Position numbers and translations under genes: made by a program. Below, piece by piece: positions 3,249 through 52,171 of a stretch of 64,000 nt of DNA. The DNA comes from Desulfofundulus salinus. GTDB lineage: Bacteria; Bacillota; Desulfotomaculia; Desulfotomaculales; Desulfovirgulaceae. Each line of letters begins with the position of its first letter. Positions within the stretch are counted from its first letter, which is position 1. The stretch covers positions 1,480,769-1,544,768 of the forward strand of contig NZ_RBWE01000001.1 in the NCBI RefSeq assembly GCF_003627965.1, given 5' to 3'. Under the pieces are notes generated by a model. It saw only the letters and a program-made list of their open reading frames with translations, did no database searches and had not been told where the DNA came from.

Positions 3249-3455
3249 ATCTCCCTTTGGAGGTGAGGTAGAGGTTGCGGACAACAAGAGTACCCCGGTG
3301 GAGGAACCGGGTTCCGCAGAAGCCGGGGGAAAGGGTTGCCCGCCGAAGTTCAGCCGTTGCCCGGAACGGCTGGGCTGGGCCGTCATCGAACAGGTGCCGG
3401 ACTGTCACCCGGTGGCTGCCCTGCTGCCGGGTGGAGCGCTATCTCACCAGGGGAG
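3249..3455 (+). promoter_or_regulatory. Lysine riboswitch (L box)
   Basis: The L-box signatures occur in order: GAGGTAGAGG, AAGAGTACC, a GC-rich arm, CCGCCGAAG, GGCTGGGC, GGACTGTCAC and TGGAGCGCTATCT. The helices between them are GC-rich and self-complementary. An intrinsic terminator and then lysA follow, the usual arrangement in which lysine binding favours termination. The boundaries are approximate. Confidence 0.93.
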
Positions 3456-17464: not shown

Positions 17465-17543
17465 ACAACATTTAAGGTGTCATGTAATTGCTTGTTGTAA
17501 GTGCTTGTATTTTTATATTTATTATTACCAGGGGGACGGTAGG

Positions 17544-17921
17544 ATGGCAAAAACCTATTTGCGGGGTATCCGGGGAGCCATAACGGTAGAACGGAATACG
17601 GCTGAGGATATCATTCAGGCCACGGGAGAACTGTTGCAGGCTATTATGGCGGAAAACGATCTTGACCCCGAGGACATTGCCAGTGCCTTTTTTACCGTTA
17701 CTGCCGATCTTAATGCTGAATTTCCGGCTACGGCAGCCCGGGAACTGCTGGGGTGGAAATATGTGCCCCTTTTATGTGCCCGGGAAATTGATGTGCCGGG
17801 GCGCCTGCCCCGGTGCATACGGGTACTGGTTCACGTGAACACAACCCGCTCCCAGCGGGAAATCAAGCATGTTTATTTGCGGGAAGCTGCGCAACTGCGC
17901 ACTGATTTACTTCCCCAGTAA
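17544..17921 (+). CDS. aroH: Chorismate mutase, AroH type
   Basis: A 125-residue monofunctional chorismate mutase of the trimeric AroH class, converting chorismate to prephenate for Tyr and Phe synthesis. Family motifs are present in order: [13 protein letters not shown] at residues 6-18 with the active-site Arg, [16 protein letters not shown] near 60, [13 protein letters not shown] near 76 with the catalytic Arg in CARE, and [11 protein letters not shown] near 93. A C-terminal [15 protein letters not shown] completes it. Start ATG 17544 follows GGGGGACGGTAGG. It probably shares a transcript with the HutP homologue 79 bases upstream. Confidence 0.96.
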
Positions 17922-17964: not shown

Positions 17965-18217
17965 TGGGCGGCGGTCGTCGCTAAGGAGCGACTTGCGGAG
18001 GGCCGGATACGAAACACGGCGCAGCTGAGGTTAGCGAACCGGCAGCGCGAATCGCGCTGGTAACAGTCTCGCAATAAATGTTTGTACCCAATAAGAAAGT
18101 GTTCCAATCAAATGGCAAACTTCCATGCGCATATGTAGCGCTGCCAGGTTCGCTCCGAAGCAAGCCGATGTTTCGTCCGGCCCGTAGCACGGAGCGACGG
18201 GGGACGACCGCCGCCCA
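17965..18217. repeat. Long hairpin element between aroH and the trp promoter (family B-like)
   Basis: The outer stem TGGGCGGCGGTCGTC (17965-17979) pairs perfectly with GACGACCGCCGCCCA (18203-18217). After an internal loop (AAGGAGCGACTTGCGGAG against TAGCACGGAGCGACGGG), further arms GGGCCGGA / TCCGGCCC, CGAAACA / TGTTTCG and AGCGAACC / GGTTCGCT continue the hairpin for about 100 nt per side. The loop strands resemble those of the other copies, but the outer stem is different. No target duplication was found. Confidence 0.8.
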
Positions 18218-18290: not shown

Positions 18291-18319
18291 TTGACAAAAC
18301 ATGTTCTCCGTGGTAAGGT
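18291..18319 (+). promoter_or_regulatory. Sigma-A-type promoter of the trp operon
   Basis: TTGACA (18291-18296), a 17-bp spacer and TAAGGT (18314-18319). It is placed just upstream of the NAG-repeat leader. Confidence 0.72.
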
Positions 18320-18339
18320 ACGCTTAGCTAAATATGGTG

Positions 18340-18400
18340 CAGGTTTTTAGTTGAGTTAGCAGAGTTGAGTTGAGGGGAGCTTCAGTTGAGGCGTGGCGAG
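18340..18400 (+). promoter_or_regulatory. Probable TRAP-binding leader (eleven NAG triplets) of trpEGDCFBA
   Basis: NAG triplets start at 18340, 18348, 18353, 18357, 18362, 18367, 18372, 18377, 18383, 18388 and 18398: eleven GAG/TAG/CAG units, nine of them with spacers of 1-3 nt (mostly 2). This is the spacing of a TRAP (MtrB) site. GCGTGGC (18391-18397), between the last two triplets, can pair with GCCGGCGC (18421-18428), the 5' arm of the following terminator, giving a mutually exclusive antiterminator. Bound TRAP would block it and allow termination. No mtrB gene is in the window. Confidence 0.78.
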
Positions 18401-18420
18401 TCTTCGTGCGGGTGTGGGCT

Positions 18421-18455
18421 GCCGGCGCTCATTGGAGCGCCGGCTTTTTGCTTTT
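18421..18455 (+). terminator. trp attenuator terminator
   Basis: GCCGGCGCTC pairs perfectly with GAGCGCCGGC over a 4-nt loop, followed by TTTTTGCTTTT. It lies just before trpE, and its 5' arm overlaps the putative antiterminator. Confidence 0.93.
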
Positions 18456-18475: not shown

Positions 18476-20137
18476 TTGATTTTTCCCTCGGAAGAAGAGT
18501 ACTTACAGCTGGCCTGCCATTACCGGCTGGTACCTGTGAGCGCCGAATGGGAGGCGGATATGGAAACACCCATTTCCCTTTTTTCCCGGCTGGCCACCAG
18601 GGGACCTTCCTTTCTTCTGGAAAGTGTGGAGGGTGGTGAAAAGCTGGCCCGCTATTCCTTTATTGGTCTTGATCCCCTGGCCGTGTACCACCAAAAGGGC
18701 GGTCTGGGGCAGATTATCCTTGGGGCAAAAAACTCTTCCGGCCTGATTGATGCCCTCAGGTCAGTTGGAAAAGAATGTATGATAGCATACCGCCCGGAGA
18801 GGGGGTCACTGTTATCCAACAGCGCAGACGGAGTTGCGCCAGGTGGTTCGGAGTACAGGTATTATCTGGAAGGGAACCCATTTGTCATTGTTGAGCAGCT
18901 GATGAGCTATTTGCGAGGTCCCCACCTGCCGGAGTTACCCCGCTTTTACGGTGGTGCAGTGGGCTACTTTGGCTACGACCTGGTGCGCTGGCTGGAAAGG
19001 TTGCCTCTAACGGCCACGGATGACCTGGGATTGCCCGACATGATCCTGCTTTTTACCGGCACCGTGCTCATCCTGGATCACCTGCGCCACACCTTAAGGG
19101 TGGTGGTGAACACACAGCCCGGACCAGATCCTCAAACCGCCTACCTCCAGGCGATAAAAACTATTGAAAAAATACACCGGTTAATTAACGGTTCCCCTGC
19201 CAGCAGGGACACTGCCGGTGGCCCGGGACCGGGTGGGAAGCTAAACACGCATAGATTTCAACAACGGGCCATGAAAGAATGTTCCTCAACAAAGAGAGAT
19301 ACAAACTCCAGTATAAGCACCAACCTGACTCGAGGGGAATTTGTATCCCTGGTGCAAAAGGCTAAGGAATATATCAGGCAGGGGGAAATCCTGCAGGTGG
19401 TTCTTTCCCAGCGTTTGCAGGTGCCCTTTAACGGAGATCCCTTCCAGGTTTACCGGCGGTTGCGCCGCATTAACCCCACCCCCTACCTGTATTACCTGAA
19501 CCTGGGGCAAGTAGTAATGGCCGGTTCTTCACCGGAGATGCTGGTACGCGTGGAGGACGATACGGTAGAAACCCGGCCCATTGCAGGAACACGCCCCCGG
19601 GGAGCTACCGTTGCGGAAGACGAAGCGCTGGCGGCGGAGTTGCTGGCCGATCCCAAGGAGCAGGCGGAACACGTAATGCTGGTGGACCTGGGGCGCAACG
19701 ACCTGGGCCGGGTATGCACTCCGGGGAGCGTAACCGTACCCCAGTTCATGAGCGTCGAGAAATATTCCCACGTCATGCATCTCGTTTCATCGGTACGGGG
19801 CGTTCTGGCCCGTAATGCGTCGGCTTTTGATGCCTTCAAGGCCTGTTTTCCGGCCGGTACGGTTTCTGGAGCGCCCAAAGTACGGGCAATGGAGATTATC
19901 GAAGAACTGGAACCCTTACGCCGCGGTCCTTACGCCGGTGCCGTGGGTTACCTGGGGTATAACGGCAACCTGGATACAGCCATCACTATCCGCACCGTCA
20001 CTTTTTACAGGGGTTTTGCTTACGTGCAGGCGGGGGCAGGCATTGTGGCCGATTCCGTACCGGAAAGGGAGTACCAGGAAACCCTGAACAAAGCCCGGGC
20101 ACTGCTGCAAACCCTTGACCTGGAAAATGAGGGGTGA
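18476..20137 (+). CDS. trpE: Anthranilate synthase component I
   Basis: A 553-residue chorismate-utilising enzyme that makes anthranilate with glutamine-derived ammonia from TrpG. The N-terminal [18 protein letters not shown] (near residue 47) is the tryptophan feedback-binding LLES region. The catalytic C-terminal domain has [21 protein letters not shown] near 365, [36 protein letters not shown] and [19 protein letters not shown] Ser/Gly-rich insertion near residues 230-275 separates the domains. Start is TTG 18476 after GGGGGG. It is the first gene of the attenuated trp operon; its stop overlaps sequence upstream of trpG. Confidence 0.97.
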
Positions 20138-20142
20138 GAGCA

Positions 20143-20784
20143 ATGTTTGCCGCACCGGTAAGGCCCGAACAGTTCAGGTTACCGGCAGGTGAAGAGGTAA
20201 GGCTACTTATGATCGATAACTACGACTCCTTTACTTATAACCTGGTGCAGTATTTTGGGGAACTCGGGATACCCGTCGAGGTAAGGCGCAACGACCAGAT
20301 TACCCTGGATAAAATCAGAGCCTTAAGCCCCACCCACGTGGTCATTTCCCCCGGTCCCGGAAACCCCGACGGGGCGGGGATTTCCCTGGCGCTGGTGAGG
20401 AACCTGGCCGGGAAAGTACCAATCCTGGGGGTGTGCCTGGGCCACCAGACCATAGGCCAGGCCTTCGGCGGCCGCGTTGTTCAGGCTCATCAGCTGATGC
20501 ACGGTAAGACCTCGGCCATTTATCACGACGGCCGGACCATTTTTCACGGGCTGCCTTCCCCCTTTACGGCTACCCGCTATCATTCCCTGGTGGTGGATGA
20601 GCATCACCTGCCCGGTTGCCTTGAGGTAAGTGCCTGGACGGTGGAAGGGGAAATCATGGGTTTACGCCACCGGGAGTTTACCGTTGAAGGGGTGCAATTC
20701 CATCCCGAATCCATTCTTACGGAATACGGGCGGGATTTGCTGGCCAACTTCCTGCGGTGCCGGGGTGGCCGGTGGGCCGCCTGA
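20143..20784 (+). CDS. trpG: Anthranilate synthase component II (glutamine amidotransferase)
   Basis: A class I glutamine amidotransferase of ~213 residues supplying ammonia to TrpE. Visible motifs: [28 protein letters not shown], the nucleophile Cys in [16 protein letters not shown] near residue 92, and the catalytic His-Glu in HPESI near 190. ATG 20143 follows GAGGGGTGAG and would give a 20-residue leader before the usual first strand; an ATG at 20211 is inside that strand and less likely. It could also serve PabB in folate synthesis, as in Bacillus, if no separate pabA exists. Confidence 0.95.
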
Positions 20785-20820
20785 AGCGATTTAACTTTTG
20801 CTGAGGGGAGACGAGTGAAG

Positions 20821-21855
20821 ATGATCAAAGAAGCCATCAGCCGGGCAGTGGCCGGGCAAAGTCTGACCGAAAAAGAAGCGGAACAGGTAATGGATGAAAT
20901 CATGACCGGACAGGCGAGCCCGGCGCAGATTGCCGCGCTGCTCACTGCCATGCGTTTTAAAGGGGAAACTATAGAAGAAATTACCGGCTTCGCCCGGTCC
21001 ATGCGCCGTCACGCCACACCGGTTCGTTCCAGGCACCCCTTGCTGGTGGACACCTGCGGCACGGGGGGAGACGGAGCCAACACCTTTAACATTTCCACCA
21101 TCGCCGCCTTCGTGCTGGCCGGGGCAGGGGTTCCGGTAGCAAAACACGGCAACCGTTCCGTATCCAGCCGCTGCGGGTCTGCCGACGTGCTGGAAGCACT
21201 GGGGGTAAATCTGGAGTTATCTCCCGCGGACCTGGAGGAGTGCCTGGACAGGGTAGGAATAGCCTTCCTTTTTGCCCCGGTTCTGCATAAAGCCATGAAG
21301 TATGCGGCGGGACCCCGGCGGGAAATAGGCATTCGCACGGTCTTTAACGTCCTTGGCCCCTTAACCAATCCTGCCGGAGCAAAAGCCCAGATTATAGGGG
21401 TGTACAGTGCGGAACTGGTACCCGTTATCGCCCGGGTACTGGCCCGGCTGGGGACCAGGCGGGCCTTTGTAGTGCACGGAGCGGGAGGGCTGGACGAAAT
21501 CTCCCCGGCCGGCCCGGCAGTAGTGGCCGAAGTGCGGGAAGAAGAAATCAGGGAATATTCCCTGGATCCGGCCGATTACGGTTTTTCTTACGTTCCCGTA
21601 GAGGCCCTGGCCGGGGGCAGCCCGGAACACAATGCGGCCCTGGCCAGGGAAATACTCCGGGGAGCTCCCGGTCCCTGCCGGGATACCGTGCTCCTTAACG
21701 CCGCTCTGGGCCTGGTGGCTGCCGGCAAGGCCGGGGATCTGGCCGGGGGTCTGGCCCTGGCCGCCGCCAGTATTGACAGCGGCGCGGCTGCAGGAAAGCT
21801 TGACGAACTGGTGGCCTTCACCCGCCGGGCCGGCAGGCAGGTGGTCAGCCTTTGA
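20821..21855 (+). CDS. trpD: Anthranilate phosphoribosyltransferase
   Basis: A 344-residue enzyme that transfers phosphoribose from PRPP to anthranilate. The PRPP-binding DTCGTGGDGANTFNIST is near residue 78, and KHGNRSVSSRCGSADVLEALG near 107 binds anthranilate. FLFAPVLHKAMKYAAGPRREIGIRT-type segments and VHGAGGLDEIS near 220 complete the fold. ATG 20821 begins at the canonical MIKEAI; GTG 20815 is closer to GGGGAG and is an alternative. The last four bases overlap the TTG start of trpC (TTGA), indicating coupling. Confidence 0.96.
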   Translation: MIKEAISRAVAGQSLTEKEAEQVMDEIMTGQASPAQIAALLTAMRFKGETIEEITGFARSMRRHATPVRSRHPLLVDTCGTGGDGANTFNISTIAAFVLAGAGVPVAKHGNRSVSSRCGSADVLEALGVNLELSPADLEECLDRVGIAFLFAPVLHKAMKYAAGPRREIGIRTVFNVLGPLTNPAGAKAQIIGVYSAELVPVIARVLARLGTRRAFVVHGAGGLDEISPAGPAVVAEVREEEIREYSLDPADYGFSYVPVEALAGGSPEHNAALAREILRGAPGPCRDTVLLNAALGLVAAGKAGDLAGGLALAAASIDSGAAAGKLDELVAFTRRAGRQVVSL

Positions 21856-22640
21856 TCCTGGAGAAAATTATTGCCCACAAACACCGGGAGATTCAATCCC
21901 GCCGGGAAATACGCCCCCTTTCCCGTTTAGTTGACCGGATCCATGCGCTTGGACCCACCAGGCCCTTAGGCAGCTTCTTGCGCCGGCCCGGGAAAGTGAC
22001 CCTCATAGCCGAGATCAAGCGGGCATCACCATCTAAAGGCTGGCTGGTAAAAGGCATGAAACCGGTAGAAACAGCCCGGATTTATACCCGGGCTGGTGCC
22101 GCGGCCATTTCCATACTTACCGATAACCGCTTTTTCCGGGGGCATCGCGCGTTCCTGCCCCTGGTGCGCCGGGAAAGCCCGTTGCCCCTTTTGTGCAAGG
22201 ACTTTATCATCGACCCTTATCAAATATACGAAGCCCGCTGTCTGGGGGCAGATGCCGTCCTGCTTATTGTCGCGGCGCTCAATGACCGGCAGTTGACCGC
22301 CTTTCAAGCACTGGCCGGTGAGCTGGGCATGAGCTGCCTGGTGGAAGTGCACACTGCGGAAGAACTGGAGCGCGCCCGGGCATCTGGAGCCACCATCATC
22401 GGCATTAACAACCGGAACCTGCACACGTTTTCTACGGATCTTAGCACTACCTTCCGCCTGCGGGAGAAAATCACCGACCCCGGAGTGGTGGTGGTCAGCG
22501 AAAGTGGCATTAATTCCAGAGAAGATATGCTGGCCCTGGCCCGCTACCGGGTAGATGCGGCCCTGGTGGGAGAGGCCCTGGTGAGAGCCGGTGATGTAGA
22601 GCAAAAGGTGAAAGAACTGCTGGGGGCACATATTCAGTAG
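21852..22640 (+). CDS. trpC: Indole-3-glycerol-phosphate synthase
   Basis: A 262-residue TIM barrel converting carboxyphenylamino-deoxyribulose phosphate to indole glycerol phosphate. Motifs: LIAEIKRASPSKGWL near residue 50 with catalytic Glu and Lys, LCKDFIIDPYQIYEAR near 113 with the catalytic Lys, LVEVHTAEE near 157, GINNRNL near 180 and VSESGI near 210. The TTG start overlaps the trpD stop. The C-terminus ends within the outer arm of a hairpin element that separates it from trpF. Confidence 0.96.
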   Translation: MILEKIIAHKHREIQSRREIRPLSRLVDRIHALGPTRPLGSFLRRPGKVTLIAEIKRASPSKGWLVKGMKPVETARIYTRAGAAAISILTDNRFFRGHRAFLPLVRRESPLPLLCKDFIIDPYQIYEARCLGADAVLLIVAALNDRQLTAFQALAGELGMSCLVEVHTAEELERARASGATIIGINNRNLHTFSTDLSTTFRLREKITDPGVVVVSESGINSREDMLALARYRVDAALVGEALVRAGDVEQKVKELLGAHIQ

Positions 22641-22925
22641 AACCGTTATGACAAGTATGCGGCGCTGTCCGGAGCGAACGACTTGCGAAGCGCCGGTAAC
22701 AGCACCCGGCGAAGCGAGGCTGCCGGCTCGGCTCTCGAGGACGCATGATGGACTACCAGAAGAAATTTTCTTAGACATATTACTTAGAAGAGGTAACAAC
22801 GAAGAATAATTAGTGGCGGGCAATCCGCAGAGAGCCAGAGCCGGCCCGAAGCGAGCCGCGGTGCTGTCGGCGCGAAGCACTGGAGTGAGCGGGGACAGCG
22901 CCGCATCCCGCCAGGTTCATTGAAT
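22632..22925. repeat. Hairpin element inside the trp operon, between trpC and trpF (family B)
   Basis: Nested inverted repeats: ATTCAGTAGAACC with GGTTCATTGAAT, ATGCGGCGCTGTCC (22657-22670) with GGACAGCGCCGCAT (22893-22906, perfect), AACAGCACC with GGTGCTGT, and GCCGGCTC with GAGCCGGC near the tip. CTGGGGG occurs just outside both ends and may be a target duplication. The left end includes the last codons of trpC. The copy at 37734-38000 is about 80% alike by eye; a deleted copy lies at 5017. As part of the operon it would be transcribed. Confidence 0.85.
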
Positions 22926-22951: not shown

Positions 22952-23566
22952 ATGGTAAGGGTAAAAATCTGTGGCATCACTGATATTTCCAGTGCCCTGG
23001 CAGCCGCTGAAGCGGGAGCAGATGCCCTCGGTTTTGTCTTTGCCCCCAGCCCCCGGCGCATCACCCCGTCCCAGGCCTGCCGGATCTGCAGGGAATTGCC
23101 GCCCTTCATCACCCGGGTGGGAGTATTTGTAGATGCCCCGCTGGAAGAAGTGCGGGCCGTGGCGGAATACTGCGGACTGGACGCGATCCAGCTGCACGGC
23201 AGTGAATCCCCGGACTACTGTCGCGCCCTGGGCCGCAGGGTGATCAAGGCCTTCCGGGTTGGTGATGAAATCGACCCGGTAGAGTTATCCCGCTATCCGG
23301 CAGATGCCATATTGCTTGATACCTTTGTGGCCGGTCAAAAGGGAGGCACCGGGCAGCCCTTTGACTGGCAGCTGGCCGCCGGTTTAAAGCTTTCCCGTCC
23401 CCTCATCCTGGCCGGCGGCCTGACACCGGAAAATGTCGGCCGGGCGGTGGCCATAGTGCAGCCCTACGGGGTGGACGTCAGCAGCGGGGTGGAAAAGGAC
23501 GGGCAGCCGGGAAAAAAGGACCCGGACAAAATCCGCCGCTTCATTGCCGCAGCCAAAGGCCTTTAG
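22952..23566 (+). CDS. trpF: Phosphoribosylanthranilate isomerase
   Basis: A 204-residue TIM barrel that isomerises phosphoribosyl anthranilate. The start [15 protein letters not shown] carries the catalytic Cys (residue 7). [53 protein letters not shown] with the catalytic Asp near residue 127, and [14 protein letters not shown] and [18 protein letters not shown] follow. The ATG at 22952 follows GGGGGAAGG. It is separated from trpC by the hairpin element but remains in operon order. Confidence 0.97.
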
Positions 23567-23591
23567 CAATATATACAAGGGGGAAAAACAC

Positions 23592-24782
23592 ATGCCTTTA
23601 CCGGATGAACGGGGCTACTTTGGATCCTTTGGAGGCCGTTACGTGCCGGAAACCCTTATGCCGGCCCTGGAAGAACTGACCGCGGCCTACCAGGAAGCCC
23701 GCCGGGACCCGTCCTTCTGGCAGGAGCTGGAATATTATCTGCAGCAATACGTGGGACGGCCCTCACCATTGTATTTTGCCCGCCGTCTGAGTGAATACTG
23801 CCGGGGGGCCAGGATTTATCTCAAGAGGGAAGACCTCAACCACACCGGTGCCCACAAGATAAATAATACCATTGGCCAGATTCTCCTGGCCCGGCGCATG
23901 GGTAAGAAACGGATTATTGCCGAAACGGGTGCCGGTCAGCACGGGGTGGCCACAGCTACCGCCGCTGCGCTGTTCGGCATGGAATGTGCCGTATACATGG
24001 GCGAAGAGGATATGGCCCGCCAGGCCCTGAACGTCTTCCGCATGCGCATCCTGGGTGCTACGGTGGTTGGTGTGACGGCGGGCAGCCGTACCCTGAAAGA
24101 TGCCATGAACGAAGCCATGCGGGATTGGGTGACCAATGTCGATACCACTTATTACCTGATCGGATCGGTGGCCGGCCCTCATCCCTATCCCGTGATGGTG
24201 CGGGATTTTCAGCGCGTGATTGGGGTGGAGACCCGCCGGCAGGTGCAGGAGCAAACCGGGAGGCTGCCCGATGTAATCGTGGCCTGCGTGGGCGGGGGGA
24301 GCAATGCCATGGGCATATTCCACCCCTTCCTTGAAGATAGGGAAGTAAAACTGGTCGGGGTGGAAGCAGCGGGCTGCGGGCTGGAAACCGGCAAACACGC
24401 TGCCACCCTTAACCGGGGCCGCCCGGGTATTTTGCACGGCTCGAAAAGCTACGTCCTGCAGGATGAAGATGGCCAGATCAACCTGGCCCACTCCATTTCC
24501 GCCGGACTGGATTACCCCGGTGTGGGTCCCGAGCACAGCTATTTGAAAGAAACGGGCCGGGTCGTCTATACTGCCGTAACCGATGGGGAGGCCCTGGAAG
24601 CCTTTCAACTGCTCTGCCGCACCGAGGGAATCATTCCGGCCCTGGAAAGTGCCCATGCCCTGGCCCAGGCAGTGAGGATGGCCGGGGAAATGCCTCAAGA
24701 TGCCATCATCGTGGTAAACCTCTCCGGCCGGGGGGACAAGGATGTGCAAACCGTGGCCCGCGCCCTGGGAGGGGAGGGCTAA
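23592..24782 (+). CDS. trpB: Tryptophan synthase beta chain
   Basis: A 396-residue PLP enzyme that joins indole and serine. [19 protein letters not shown] starts the protein, the PLP lysine is in [10 protein letters not shown] near residue 85, and [10 protein letters not shown] near 108, [10 protein letters not shown] near 190, [10 protein letters not shown] near 233 and LSGRGDKD near 382 are all present. This is the standard TrpB1 type. Start ATG 23592 follows AAGGGGGAA; the frame is open into trpF, but the upstream part is not conserved. Confidence 0.98.
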
Positions 24783-24835: not shown

Positions 24836-25645
24836 ATGAAAGGAAACCGCATCACCCAACGTTTTTCTGCCCTGGCCCAAGAAGGGAAAAAGGGTCTGAT
24901 CACTTACATTACCGCCGGGGATCCGGATCTGGATACAACCGCCCGACTGGTTGAGACCATGATTGAGGCCGGGGCCGACCTGGTGGAAGTGGGCATCCCC
25001 TTTTCGGATCCCGTAGCCGACGGCCCGGTTATCCAGCAGGCCTCTGCCCGGGCTCTGGCCAACGGCGTACGGGTTAAGGACATCATCCGCATGTGCGCCG
25101 GCATCCGGCAAAAAAGCACCGGTGTTCCTTTAATCCTGATGACCTACTACAATCCCGTTTTTCAGTACGGGTTGGAAAATTTTGCTCGGGACGCCGCCCG
25201 GGCCGGGGTGGACGGCCTGATCGTGCCCGACCTGCCCTTTGAAGAGAGCGAAGAATTGCTGGGGCATACTGATCGTTATGGACTCGCCCTCATACCCCTG
25301 GTGGCTCCTACCACCACCGAAAAAAGGCTGGCCGCCATGGCTCCCGCGGTCCGGGGCTTTGTCTACTGCGTTTCGGTCACCGGAGTAACCGGTGCCCGGG
25401 AGGAGATTCACACCGACCTGGCGAAATTCATGCAGAAGGTGCGCCGGCACATACAGCTTCCCTGCGCCATTGGCTTCGGCATTGCCGGTCCGGCGCAGGC
25501 TGCCGCGGTGGCACCGTACTGTGATGCCATGGTGGTGGGTAGCGCCATCGTCGACCTGGTGGCCCGGGCGGGTACGGGAGATCCCGCTCCGGCGGTGGCC
25601 TCCCTGGTAAGGGAAATAAAGTGCGCTATCGAAAAGTGTGCCTGA
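24836..25645 (+). CDS. trpA: Tryptophan synthase alpha chain
   Basis: A 269-residue TIM barrel that cleaves indole-3-glycerol phosphate and channels indole to TrpB. The catalytic Glu is in LVEVGIPFSDPVADGPVIQ near residue 48 and the catalytic Asp in GLIVPDLPFEES near 130. YCVSVTGVTGAR, GFGIAGPAQA and VVGSAIVD bind phosphate. ATG 24836 has no strong nearby RBS; an AAAGGAGT lies 26 bases upstream. It is the last trp gene, followed closely by a DAHP synthase. Confidence 0.97.
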   Translation: MKGNRITQRFSALAQEGKKGLITYITAGDPDLDTTARLVETMIEAGADLVEVGIPFSDPVADGPVIQQASARALANGVRVKDIIRMCAGIRQKSTGVPLILMTYYNPVFQYGLENFARDAARAGVDGLIVPDLPFEESEELLGHTDRYGLALIPLVAPTTTEKRLAAMAPAVRGFVYCVSVTGVTGAREEIHTDLAKFMQKVRRHIQLPCAIGFGIAGPAQAAAVAPYCDAMVVGSAIVDLVARAGTGDPAPAVASLVREIKCAIEKCA

Positions 25646-25676: not shown

Positions 25677-26498
25677 TTGCCTTCCTATGAACTGGTTGGC
25701 CGGGAACGCCAGCCGCAAAACACAGTGATTGATCTAAAAACCTGCCGCCTCGGGGACGGCCAGGTGGTAATTATTGCCGGTCCCTGCGCCGTAGAGAGTG
25801 AGGAGCAGATGCTGGGGCTGGCCCGGACCCTCAAGGAGATGGGGGTACATATCTTAAGGGGCGGAGCCTTTAAACCCCGCACCTCTCCCTATTCCTTCCA
25901 GGGACTGGGAGAAGAAGGTTTGCGTATTCTGGCCCGGGCCCGGGAACTGACCGGTTTGCCCGTGGTCACCGAGGTCACCGACGTGCGCTACCTGGACATG
26001 GTTTTGAAATACACCGATATTCTCCAAATTGGCAGCCGCAACATGCAGAACTTTGACCTGTTGCGGGAAGTCGGACGGGTTCAGCATCCCGTGCTGCTCA
26101 AAAGAGGGTTCGCCGCCACCATCGAGGAGTGGCTGCTGGCCGCGGAATATATTCTGGCCGGGGGCAACCACAAGGTTATCCTGTGCGAGCGGGGCATACG
26201 CACCTTTGAAACCTATACCCGTAACACCCTGGATATAAACGCCATCCCTGCCGTTAAGGAGCTTTCCCACCTGCCTGTAATTGCCGATCCCAGCCACGGC
26301 ACGGGACGCCGCTCCCTGGTGGCCCCGGTGGCCAAAGCGGCGGTAGCGGCGGGAGCCGACGGATTGATGCTGGAAGTTCACCCCTGCCCTCAAGAGGCCC
26401 TTTCCGACGGCCCCCAGTCCCTGTTCCCCGAACAACTGGGGCGGCTGATGGCAGAACTGCGCCCCCTGGCTGAAAGCCTCGGACGCAGGCTGTCCTAA
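25677..26498 (+). CDS. aroF: DAHP synthase, short AroA-beta/KDPS-like type (no regulatory domain)
   Basis: A 273-residue 3-deoxy-7-phosphoheptulonate synthase condensing PEP and erythrose-4-phosphate, the first shikimate step. Motifs: [29 protein letters not shown] near residue 60, [40 protein letters not shown] and DPSHGTGRR. It lacks the N-terminal ferredoxin-like domain present in its paralogue 1.3 kb downstream, so it may be insensitive to feedback. TTG 25677 follows a consensus AAGGAGGT. It lies 31 bases after trpA and is probably the last gene read from the trp promoter. Confidence 0.94.
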
Positions 26499-26985: not shown

Positions 26986-28020
26986 ATGATTGTCGTCATG
27001 CAACAGGATGCAACCAGTGAGCAGGTAGAAGCAGTAGTGGCGCGGCTGGAAAAGAGCGGTTTTCAAGTGCACCTCTCCCAGGGGGTAGAGCGGACCATCA
27101 TCGGGATTATTGGCGACCGCACCCGCCTGGGGGATATGGCCCTGGAAGCCATGCCCGGCGTGGAAAAGATAATGCCGGTGCTTCAACCCTATAAGCTGGC
27201 CAGCCGGGCCTTTCATCCGGAAGACAGCGTGATCATGGTGGGGGATCTGGCCATCGGGGGGGAAAAGATCCATGTGATGGCCGGACCCTGTGCGGTGGAA
27301 AGCCGGGAACAGTTGCTGGAGGCGGCCCGGCAGGTGAAAGCTGCCGGGGCTACCATTTTACGGGGAGGTGCTTATAAGCCCCGTACTTCCCCCTATTCCT
27401 TTCAAGGGCTGGAAGAGGAGGGTTTGAAGCTTCTGGCCGAGGCCCGGGAACTCACCGGGCTAAAAGTAGTCACGGAAGTGATGGATGTGCGCACCCTGCC
27501 CCTGGTGGCGGAATACGCCGACATTCTACAAATCGGTGCCCGGAACATGCAAAACTTCTTCCTCCTGCGGGAAGTGGCCCGGGTCGATAAACCTGTCCTT
27601 TTAAAACGCGGCCTTTCATGCACCATTGAAGAGTGGCTCATGGCGGCAGAATACATTATGTCCGGAGGCAACCATCGGGTGATCCTGTGCGAGCGGGGCA
27701 TCCGCACCTTTGAAAACTACACCCGCAACACCCTGGATCTTACCGCCGTGCCGGTGGTCAAATACTTAAGCCACCTGCCGGTGGTGGTAGACCCCAGCCA
27801 CGGCATCGGTAAATGGCGGTTTGTGCCCACCATGGCCCGGGCGGCGGTCGCCGCCGGTGCCGACGGCCTGCTAATCGAGGTGCACCCCAACCCGGCGGAA
27901 GCCCTGTGCGACGGCCCGCAGTCTTTAACTCCGGAAAATTTTGCCCACATGATGAAGGAATTACGCGGTGTAGCCCGGGCCGTAAACCGCCAGCTGGCCG
28001 GGGGAGTTGCTGATGTTTAA
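26986..28020 (+). CDS. aroF: DAHP synthase with N-terminal ferredoxin-like regulatory domain
   Basis: A 344-residue AroA-beta DAHP synthase. Residues 1-~75 ([20 protein letters not shown]...) form the ferredoxin-like domain which in Thermotoga binds Tyr/Phe for feedback inhibition. The catalytic barrel has [65 protein letters not shown] and DPSHGIGKW. It is a paralogue of the short enzyme upstream; this copy is the probably regulated one. ATG 26986 follows GGGGGGTC. The stop overlaps the start of tyrA by eight bases. Confidence 0.96.
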
Positions 28021-47494: not shown

Positions 47495-47512
47495 TACACT
47501 TGTAATTGAATT

Positions 47513-47664
47513 ACCAGTGGCCGAATCCCCGGGAACCCGGGGTACGGGGGAATTTTTACCCGGAGCGGGGTGAATCCGCGCGTTATTAAGGAGGTGAAAA
47601 TAAGACGCGCGGTAGGGTGCCCTCTACCCGAACCCATCAACTAACCCCGGAGGCTAGAGGAGGG
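47513..47664 (+). promoter_or_regulatory. ydaO-yuaA riboswitch (cyclic di-AMP)
   Basis: Conserved blocks of the ydaO class occur in order: CCGAATCC, GGGGTACGGGGGA, GGAGCGGGGTGAATCCGCGC, AGGGTGCCCTCTACCCGAA, CCCATCAACTAACCCCGG and GAGGCTAGAGG. It lies directly upstream of a LysM-SleB wall hydrolase, the classic context in which c-di-AMP turns off cell-wall hydrolase expression. An expression-platform terminator is not obvious; AGGAGGTG inside the aptamer loop is probably fortuitous. Confidence 0.92.
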
Positions 47665-47669
47665 AAAAA

Positions 47670-52065: not shown

Positions 52066-52168
52066 CCGAATCCTGGAGGGCAAACCCGGCGAAAGCCGGG
52101 GGCGCAAAGCCACAGGTCTAAGGTTCCCCAAAGGGTTGCTACGGGGAACTATGACGGCTGGGTTGCAA
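52066..52168 (+). promoter_or_regulatory. GEMM-I riboswitch (cyclic di-GMP)
   Basis: The GEMM-I core is clear: GGAGGGCAAACC, a GCGAAAGC tetraloop arm (GNRA), GGCGCAAAGCCACAGGTCTA, then a second GC arm (GGTTCCCC / GGGGAACT) and closing GACGGCTGGGTTGC. It is followed by a terminator-like hairpin and then an HD-GYP gene, fitting control of c-di-GMP turnover. The exact P1 ends are uncertain. Confidence 0.9.
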
Positions 52169-52171
52169 GGG

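Follow-up and report, generated by a model that had tools for sequence, protein, structure and literature searches.

A probable TRAP-dependent attenuator in the trp leader of Desulfofundulus salinus and indications of a wider TRAP regulon in Desulfotomaculales

The window analyzed here, a 64,000-nucleotide stretch of the Desulfofundulus salinus genome, contains a trp operon on its forward strand. The genes trpE (18476–20137; TIGR00564, E 1.5e-162), trpG (20134–20784; TIGR00566), trpD (20815–21855; TIGR01245), trpC (21852–22640; NF001377), trpF (22952–23566; NF002298), trpB (23544–24782; TIGR00263) and trpA (24836–25645; TIGR00262) follow one another, with the conserved start codon of trpD probably being the ATG at 20821. 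The first-pass annotation of this DNA had placed aroH upstream of the operon and trpF apart from it. The chorismate mutase gene aroH (17505–17921; TIGR01796) indeed lies upstream of the promoter, but trpF belongs to the operon as well, being separated from trpC by a gap of 311 nt and followed by trpB. Two DAHP synthase genes are found in tandem downstream of trpA (25677–26498, NF006421 and TIGR01361; and 26986–28020). Related palindromic GC-rich intergenic elements occur beside the trp promoter (17965–18217) and in the trpC–trpF gap (22650–22910); one of the two includes a perfect 15-bp inverted repeat (17965–17979 and 18203–18217), and the pair possibly represents a repeated mobile element. 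Elsewhere, the window carries lysine (3261–3449), c-di-AMP (47509–47669) and c-di-GMP-I (52069–52170) riboswitches.

The promoter ahead of trpE, identified from the sequence, consists of a −35 element TTGACA (18291–18296), a 17-nt spacer and a −10 element TAAGGT (18314–18319). The former hexamer is kept in all 7 aligned leaders of the family; the latter is weak and was missed by a consensus scan. At the start of the transcript, RNAfold predicts a possible stem-loop (18326–18352; AGCUAAA...UUUAGUU), which also covers the first TAG triplet. This stem-loop is kept in genomes G001, G003, and G005 and absent from G002, G004, and G007, a distribution that speaks only weakly for it.

Downstream of the promoter, 9 NAG triplets follow one another with a period of 4–6 nt (18348–18390, the first starting at 18348 and the last at 18388), as the first-pass annotation had described. 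This chain scores 15.8, the highest value in the window on either strand (runner-up, 8.8), compared with a maximum of 9.6 in shuffled 64-kb windows, and none of the 5000 dinucleotide shuffles of the leader reached it. NAG triplets start at positions 18340, 18348, 18353, 18357, 18362, 18367, 18372, 18377, 18383, 18388, and 18398, with a further CAG at 18360 overlapping the GAG at 18362. When 11 slots are fitted, the best register spans 18348–18400 (last slot starting at 18398; 0 of 2000 shuffles match), which constitutes the predicted TRAP-binding array. The array of 11 triplets originally proposed was thus a slightly generous count: 10 NAG triplets do fall in an 11-slot register, but the slot at 18393 is a degenerate GTG, located within the antiterminator strand, and the CAG at 18340 sits 8 nt upstream of the array, out of register. 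The array is further weakened, together with the degenerate slot, by a single 1-nt spacer (18353/18357); apart from this spacer, the leader displays the 9–11 NAG triplets with 2–3-nt spacers by which a TRAP trp attenuator is recognized. A model of the array built from sequence only (R1) matches the trp leader at G000:C1:1499114–1499147 with an E value of 0.005.

Between the array and trpE stands an intrinsic terminator (18421–18444) whose stem of 10 bp is free of mismatches and precedes TTTTT; it was recovered by sequence scan, by RNAfold and through its order-wide core. The predicted antiterminator hairpin (18388–18431; GAG.CGUGGC.GAGUC with GGGCU-GCC(G)GCGCUC) overlaps both the 3′ end of the array and the 5′ arm of the terminator, its core at 18391–18397 pairing with 18422–18429 with 1 bulged G. 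Both the perfect terminator and the singly bulged GCGTGGC pairing, which overlaps the last triplets as well as the 5′ arm of the terminator, had been anticipated by the first-pass annotation. The RNAfold energies are −17.4 kcal/mol for the antiterminator versus −21.9 kcal/mol for the terminator. A local hairpin near 18410–18430 competes with the antiterminator in RNAfold, so that the exact fold of the latter is only provisional. When the 9 strict triplets (18348–18390) were blocked in RNAfold, the antiterminator still formed, whereas blocking of 18348–18400 abolished it; the 11-slot register is thus the mechanistically sensible one.

Comparative support for the antiterminator, derived from aligned sequences, is modest to moderate. 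Within the genus, 97% of the cells in the antiterminator alignment pair. The pair 18393–18426 is G–C in 5 leaders and A–U in 2 (G002 and G005), in which the change in the shared strand turns the competing terminator pair from C–G to the weaker U–G. Weakening of the terminator with the antiterminator pair being kept is as expected under selection for the antiterminator, but this is the sole two-sided change, amounting to 1 event or 2, and 61 to 308 of 500 shuffles score as high. Thermodynamic shuffles were not discriminating, because the GC-rich terminator arms pair with most sequences; an arm-swap test and pair counts were used in their place. In the arm-swap test, pairing was better between arms of one leader than between arms taken from different leaders (p about 0.017), and pairing with the terminator arm is stronger for array 3′ ends (−9.1 kcal/mol) than for mid-array segments (−6.7 kcal/mol).

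The first-pass annotation had made its TRAP site depend on an mtrB homologue in the same genome, and the genome encodes one, in a single copy (G000:C1:1686852–1687052; PF02081, E 3.7e-39). The protein scores 135 bits against PF02081 (cut-off, 21.3) and 139.1 against NCBIfam NF009724 (equivalog cut-off, 117), matches solved TRAP structures and is 97% identical to MtrB of Desulfofundulus australicus, the nearest named relative by MtrB. The RNA-contact residues of TRAP, F32, E36, K37, D39, K56, and R58 in B. subtilis numbering (PMC3184956), are all present, each being found in at least 109 of the 111 homologues; the GLTRG...AQFTEHTSA region around the tryptophan pocket is likewise intact in this protein and almost invariant among the homologues. 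The mtrB gene was detected in 58 of 60 relatives, in 81 of the 85 genomes of the class and in 154 of the 299 genomes that were sampled from the phylum. Accordingly, the description of the site as lying outside Bacillus holds, but with mtrB in about half of the sampled phylum this is not unusual: TRAP outside Bacillus is common rather than an oddity.

Across the order, a NAG chain lies upstream of trpE in all 54 trpE leaders examined, 51 of which score above the shuffled 64-kb maximum; in the 3 lower-scoring leaders (L053, L151, and L158), the visible arrays are broken by a gap. In nearly all 54 leaders, the array is followed by a terminator, the core of which, CCGGyrCTCAT..GAGyrCCGG, is kept across the order (recognized by eye in some leaders, where the U run begins a short distance after the stem). 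The second trpE/pabB-like loci (L166–L169), in which an own array was not found, serve as internal negatives, a use limited by the arrays which pabA operons elsewhere do carry. At 2 of these loci, L167 and L168 (genomes G026 and G033), a T-box-like sequence precedes the second trpE; both genomes retain mtrB.

Outside the class, arrays counted with R1 at E up to 0.02 were found in 18 of 20 genomes with mtrB and in 0 of 20 without it (Fisher p 3e-9, a value that overstates the certainty, the 40 genomes from the phylum not being phylogenetically independent). Inside the class, R1 had no match in G066, G068, and G088, which lack mtrB, or in G065, which has only a truncated mtrB; trpE is itself absent from G065 and G088, and only a distant trpE is present in G066 and G068. 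In G012, the array is present and mtrB was not detected, possibly having been lost to an assembly gap. In 3 genomes outside the class (G122:C14, G106:C7, and G100:C85), the distance between mtrB and a NAG array is about 300 nt or less, so that mtrB may itself be the first gene of an operon under TRAP control.

The layout of Bacillus trp attenuation, which the first-pass annotation had recognized in this leader, is supported by the presence of mtrB, by the array and the terminator, by predicted pairings that exclude each other, and by the conservation and co-occurrence of these elements, all of them read from the genome sequences. We consider it highly probable that transcription of trpEGDCFBA is attenuated at this leader by TRAP. 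By analogy with Bacillus, from which the tryptophan-dependent binding of the ring, the sense of regulation and in vivo termination are taken, MtrB lacking bound tryptophan would not engage the nascent transcript, so that positions 18388–18400 at the 3′ end of the array would pair with the 5′ arm of the terminator (18421–18431) and RNA polymerase, with the antiterminator formed, would read on into trpE. In the presence of tryptophan, the MtrB ring would be wrapped by 18348–18400, preventing the antiterminator, and the 10-bp terminator would form, ending transcription before trpE. TRAP would have to cover the last 2 slots, the 9 strict triplets alone leaving the antiterminator able to form.

Alternatively, MtrB could act mainly by stalling or releasing the polymerase upon binding, or by blocking trpE translation, the antiterminator not being the switch. 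B. subtilis TRAP can cause termination in the leader without the attenuator (PMC3913778), and the moderate pairing statistics, as well as the short array over the trpD start and, in relatives, the arrays over the trpB2 and trpB start codons, leave room for such an action. However, both the core of the terminator and the 5′ arm shared with the antiterminator are kept across the order, and the 1 shared-strand change is matched on the antiterminator side, making this explanation unlikely in our view. Control of the operon by a tryptophan T-box riboswitch or by a leader peptide with Trp codons is far less probable still: the T-box-like sequence noted by eye before the second trpE of G026 and G033 is its main recommendation, whereas Rfam found no T-box in the window or in the leader locus L177 and no other element in the trp leader, and no Trp-rich short frame was seen by eye between the promoter and the terminator. 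Finally, GAG is favored in purine-rich leaders and ribosome-binding sites, so a chance purine-rich run ahead of an ordinary terminator was considered; given the shuffles (0 of 5000), the order-wide conservation and the co-occurrence with mtrB, we reject this explanation, the probability of which is negligible.

TRAP-dependent attenuation appears to extend beyond the trp operon. When the genome was searched with R1 at E up to 10, 3 matches were obtained, namely, the trp leader, G000:C1:667930–667958 and G000:C1:2218048–2218067, all of which lead tryptophan-related operons and in all of which the array is followed by a terminator. The second array precedes dctP-dctQ-dctM-iorA-iorB (G000:C1:667924–673500; L178 1495–1529, L229; TIGR03336, E 6.4e-252), and the other 5 genomes of the genus carry an equivalent array upstream of dctP or iorA. 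The third array, running from G000:C1:2218067 downwards on the reverse strand (L180, L278), precedes a gene for a TrpX-like ABC solute-binding protein (NF041285, 297.9 bits, under the cut-off of 390). In relatives, an array with a terminator was found before TrpP-type S components with ECF ATPases (assigned by PF17099 for L208 and by frame similarity for the others), iorA, pabA/trpG, an amino acid permease, and a trpD-first operon. At trpB2 (L204, L207, L225, and L226) and trpB (L222), the terminator is missing and the array reaches into the start codon, an arrangement suggestive of translational blocking of the type seen at B. subtilis trpG and trpP (PMC4347634). In the window itself, a weak run of 4 NAG triplets lies over the trpD ribosome-binding site (20803–20820); it is longer in L038, L045, and L054 and is a possible second TRAP site. 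Matches with weak E values and without independent support (e.g., L214 and L216) are not to be counted as targets.

Searches with B. subtilis anti-TRAP in the order matched mainly frames of DnaJ length in the 60 relatives, and these were rejected as candidates for a core-genome anti-TRAP. At the family level, the order yielded a single match, a protein of 73 aa encoded in this genome (G000:C1:1839747–1839965; L277 548–769) and absent from the 60 relatives, which passes the Pfam Anti-TRAP cut-off (55 versus 32 bits) and fails that of NCBIfam RtpA (43.6 versus 65). Its neighbors, identified by visual inspection of their sequences, include a serine recombinase, an ImmA/IrrE-like peptidase, a DNA methyltransferase, and a DnaB-like helicase; the region has phage-like genes, and PHROGs returned no function for the small proteins beside the 73-aa protein. 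The 73-aa protein may be an anti-TRAP of a mobile element and is regarded here as a lead only.

The leader resembles that of the B. subtilis trpEDCFBA operon, which is controlled by TRAP (MtrB) (PMC3913778, PMC4027176), in having an array of (G/U)AG type with 2–3-nt spacers, an antiterminator that overlaps the array and shares the 5′ arm of the terminator, and mtrB in the genome. Unlike in B. subtilis, the Desulfofundulus array has 10 NAG in 11 slots, 1 of them degenerate, the terminator is GC-rich with a perfect 10-bp stem, the operon contains trpG, with DAHP synthase genes downstream, and the core genome of the clade is devoid of anti-TRAP. The number of triplets in an array need not equal 11, as illustrated by the trp leader of B. 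halodurans, with a 12-subunit TRAP and 19 NAG (PMC3184956); similarly, several trpE leaders of the order carry 12 or more NAG. The arrays over the ribosome-binding site and start codon at trpB2 and trpB in the clade are reminiscent of the translational sites of B. subtilis trpG (pabA) and trpP, but the genes concerned are different, and pabA and TrpP-ECF of the clade have attenuator-type leaders with a terminator. Searches of the literature on TRAP in Desulfotomaculales, Moorella, Pelotomaculum, and Carboxydothermus found nothing relevant; subscription papers on trp operon evolution lay outside the search, so earlier notice of mtrB in these organisms is possible.

Taken by itself, the trp leader most probably adds one more TRAP attenuator of known type, although it indicates that attenuation by TRAP, work on which has centered almost entirely on Bacillus, is the norm in a large and deeply divergent group of anaerobes. 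It is the regulon that goes further. We think it likely that TRAP serves as the master RNA-based regulator of tryptophan in Desulfotomaculales and related Bacillota. It would act by attenuation and by start-codon occlusion, mostly without anti-TRAP, and its regulon would exceed that known from Bacillus, taking in indolepyruvate:ferredoxin oxidoreductase together with a tripartite DctPQM transporter, a TrpX-like ABC importer, TrpP-ECF, pabA, trpB2, and trpD. Where anti-TRAP is absent, one may ask how the activity of TRAP is adjusted. The leaders with an array and a terminator would assign DctPQM, the TrpX-like protein, TrpP-ECF, the amino acid permease, and IorAB to tryptophan metabolism, with indolepyruvate:ferredoxin oxidoreductase and DctPQM forming a possible route for the salvage of indole acids to tryptophan, and these assignments provide testable predictions of transporter substrates and of the salvage route.
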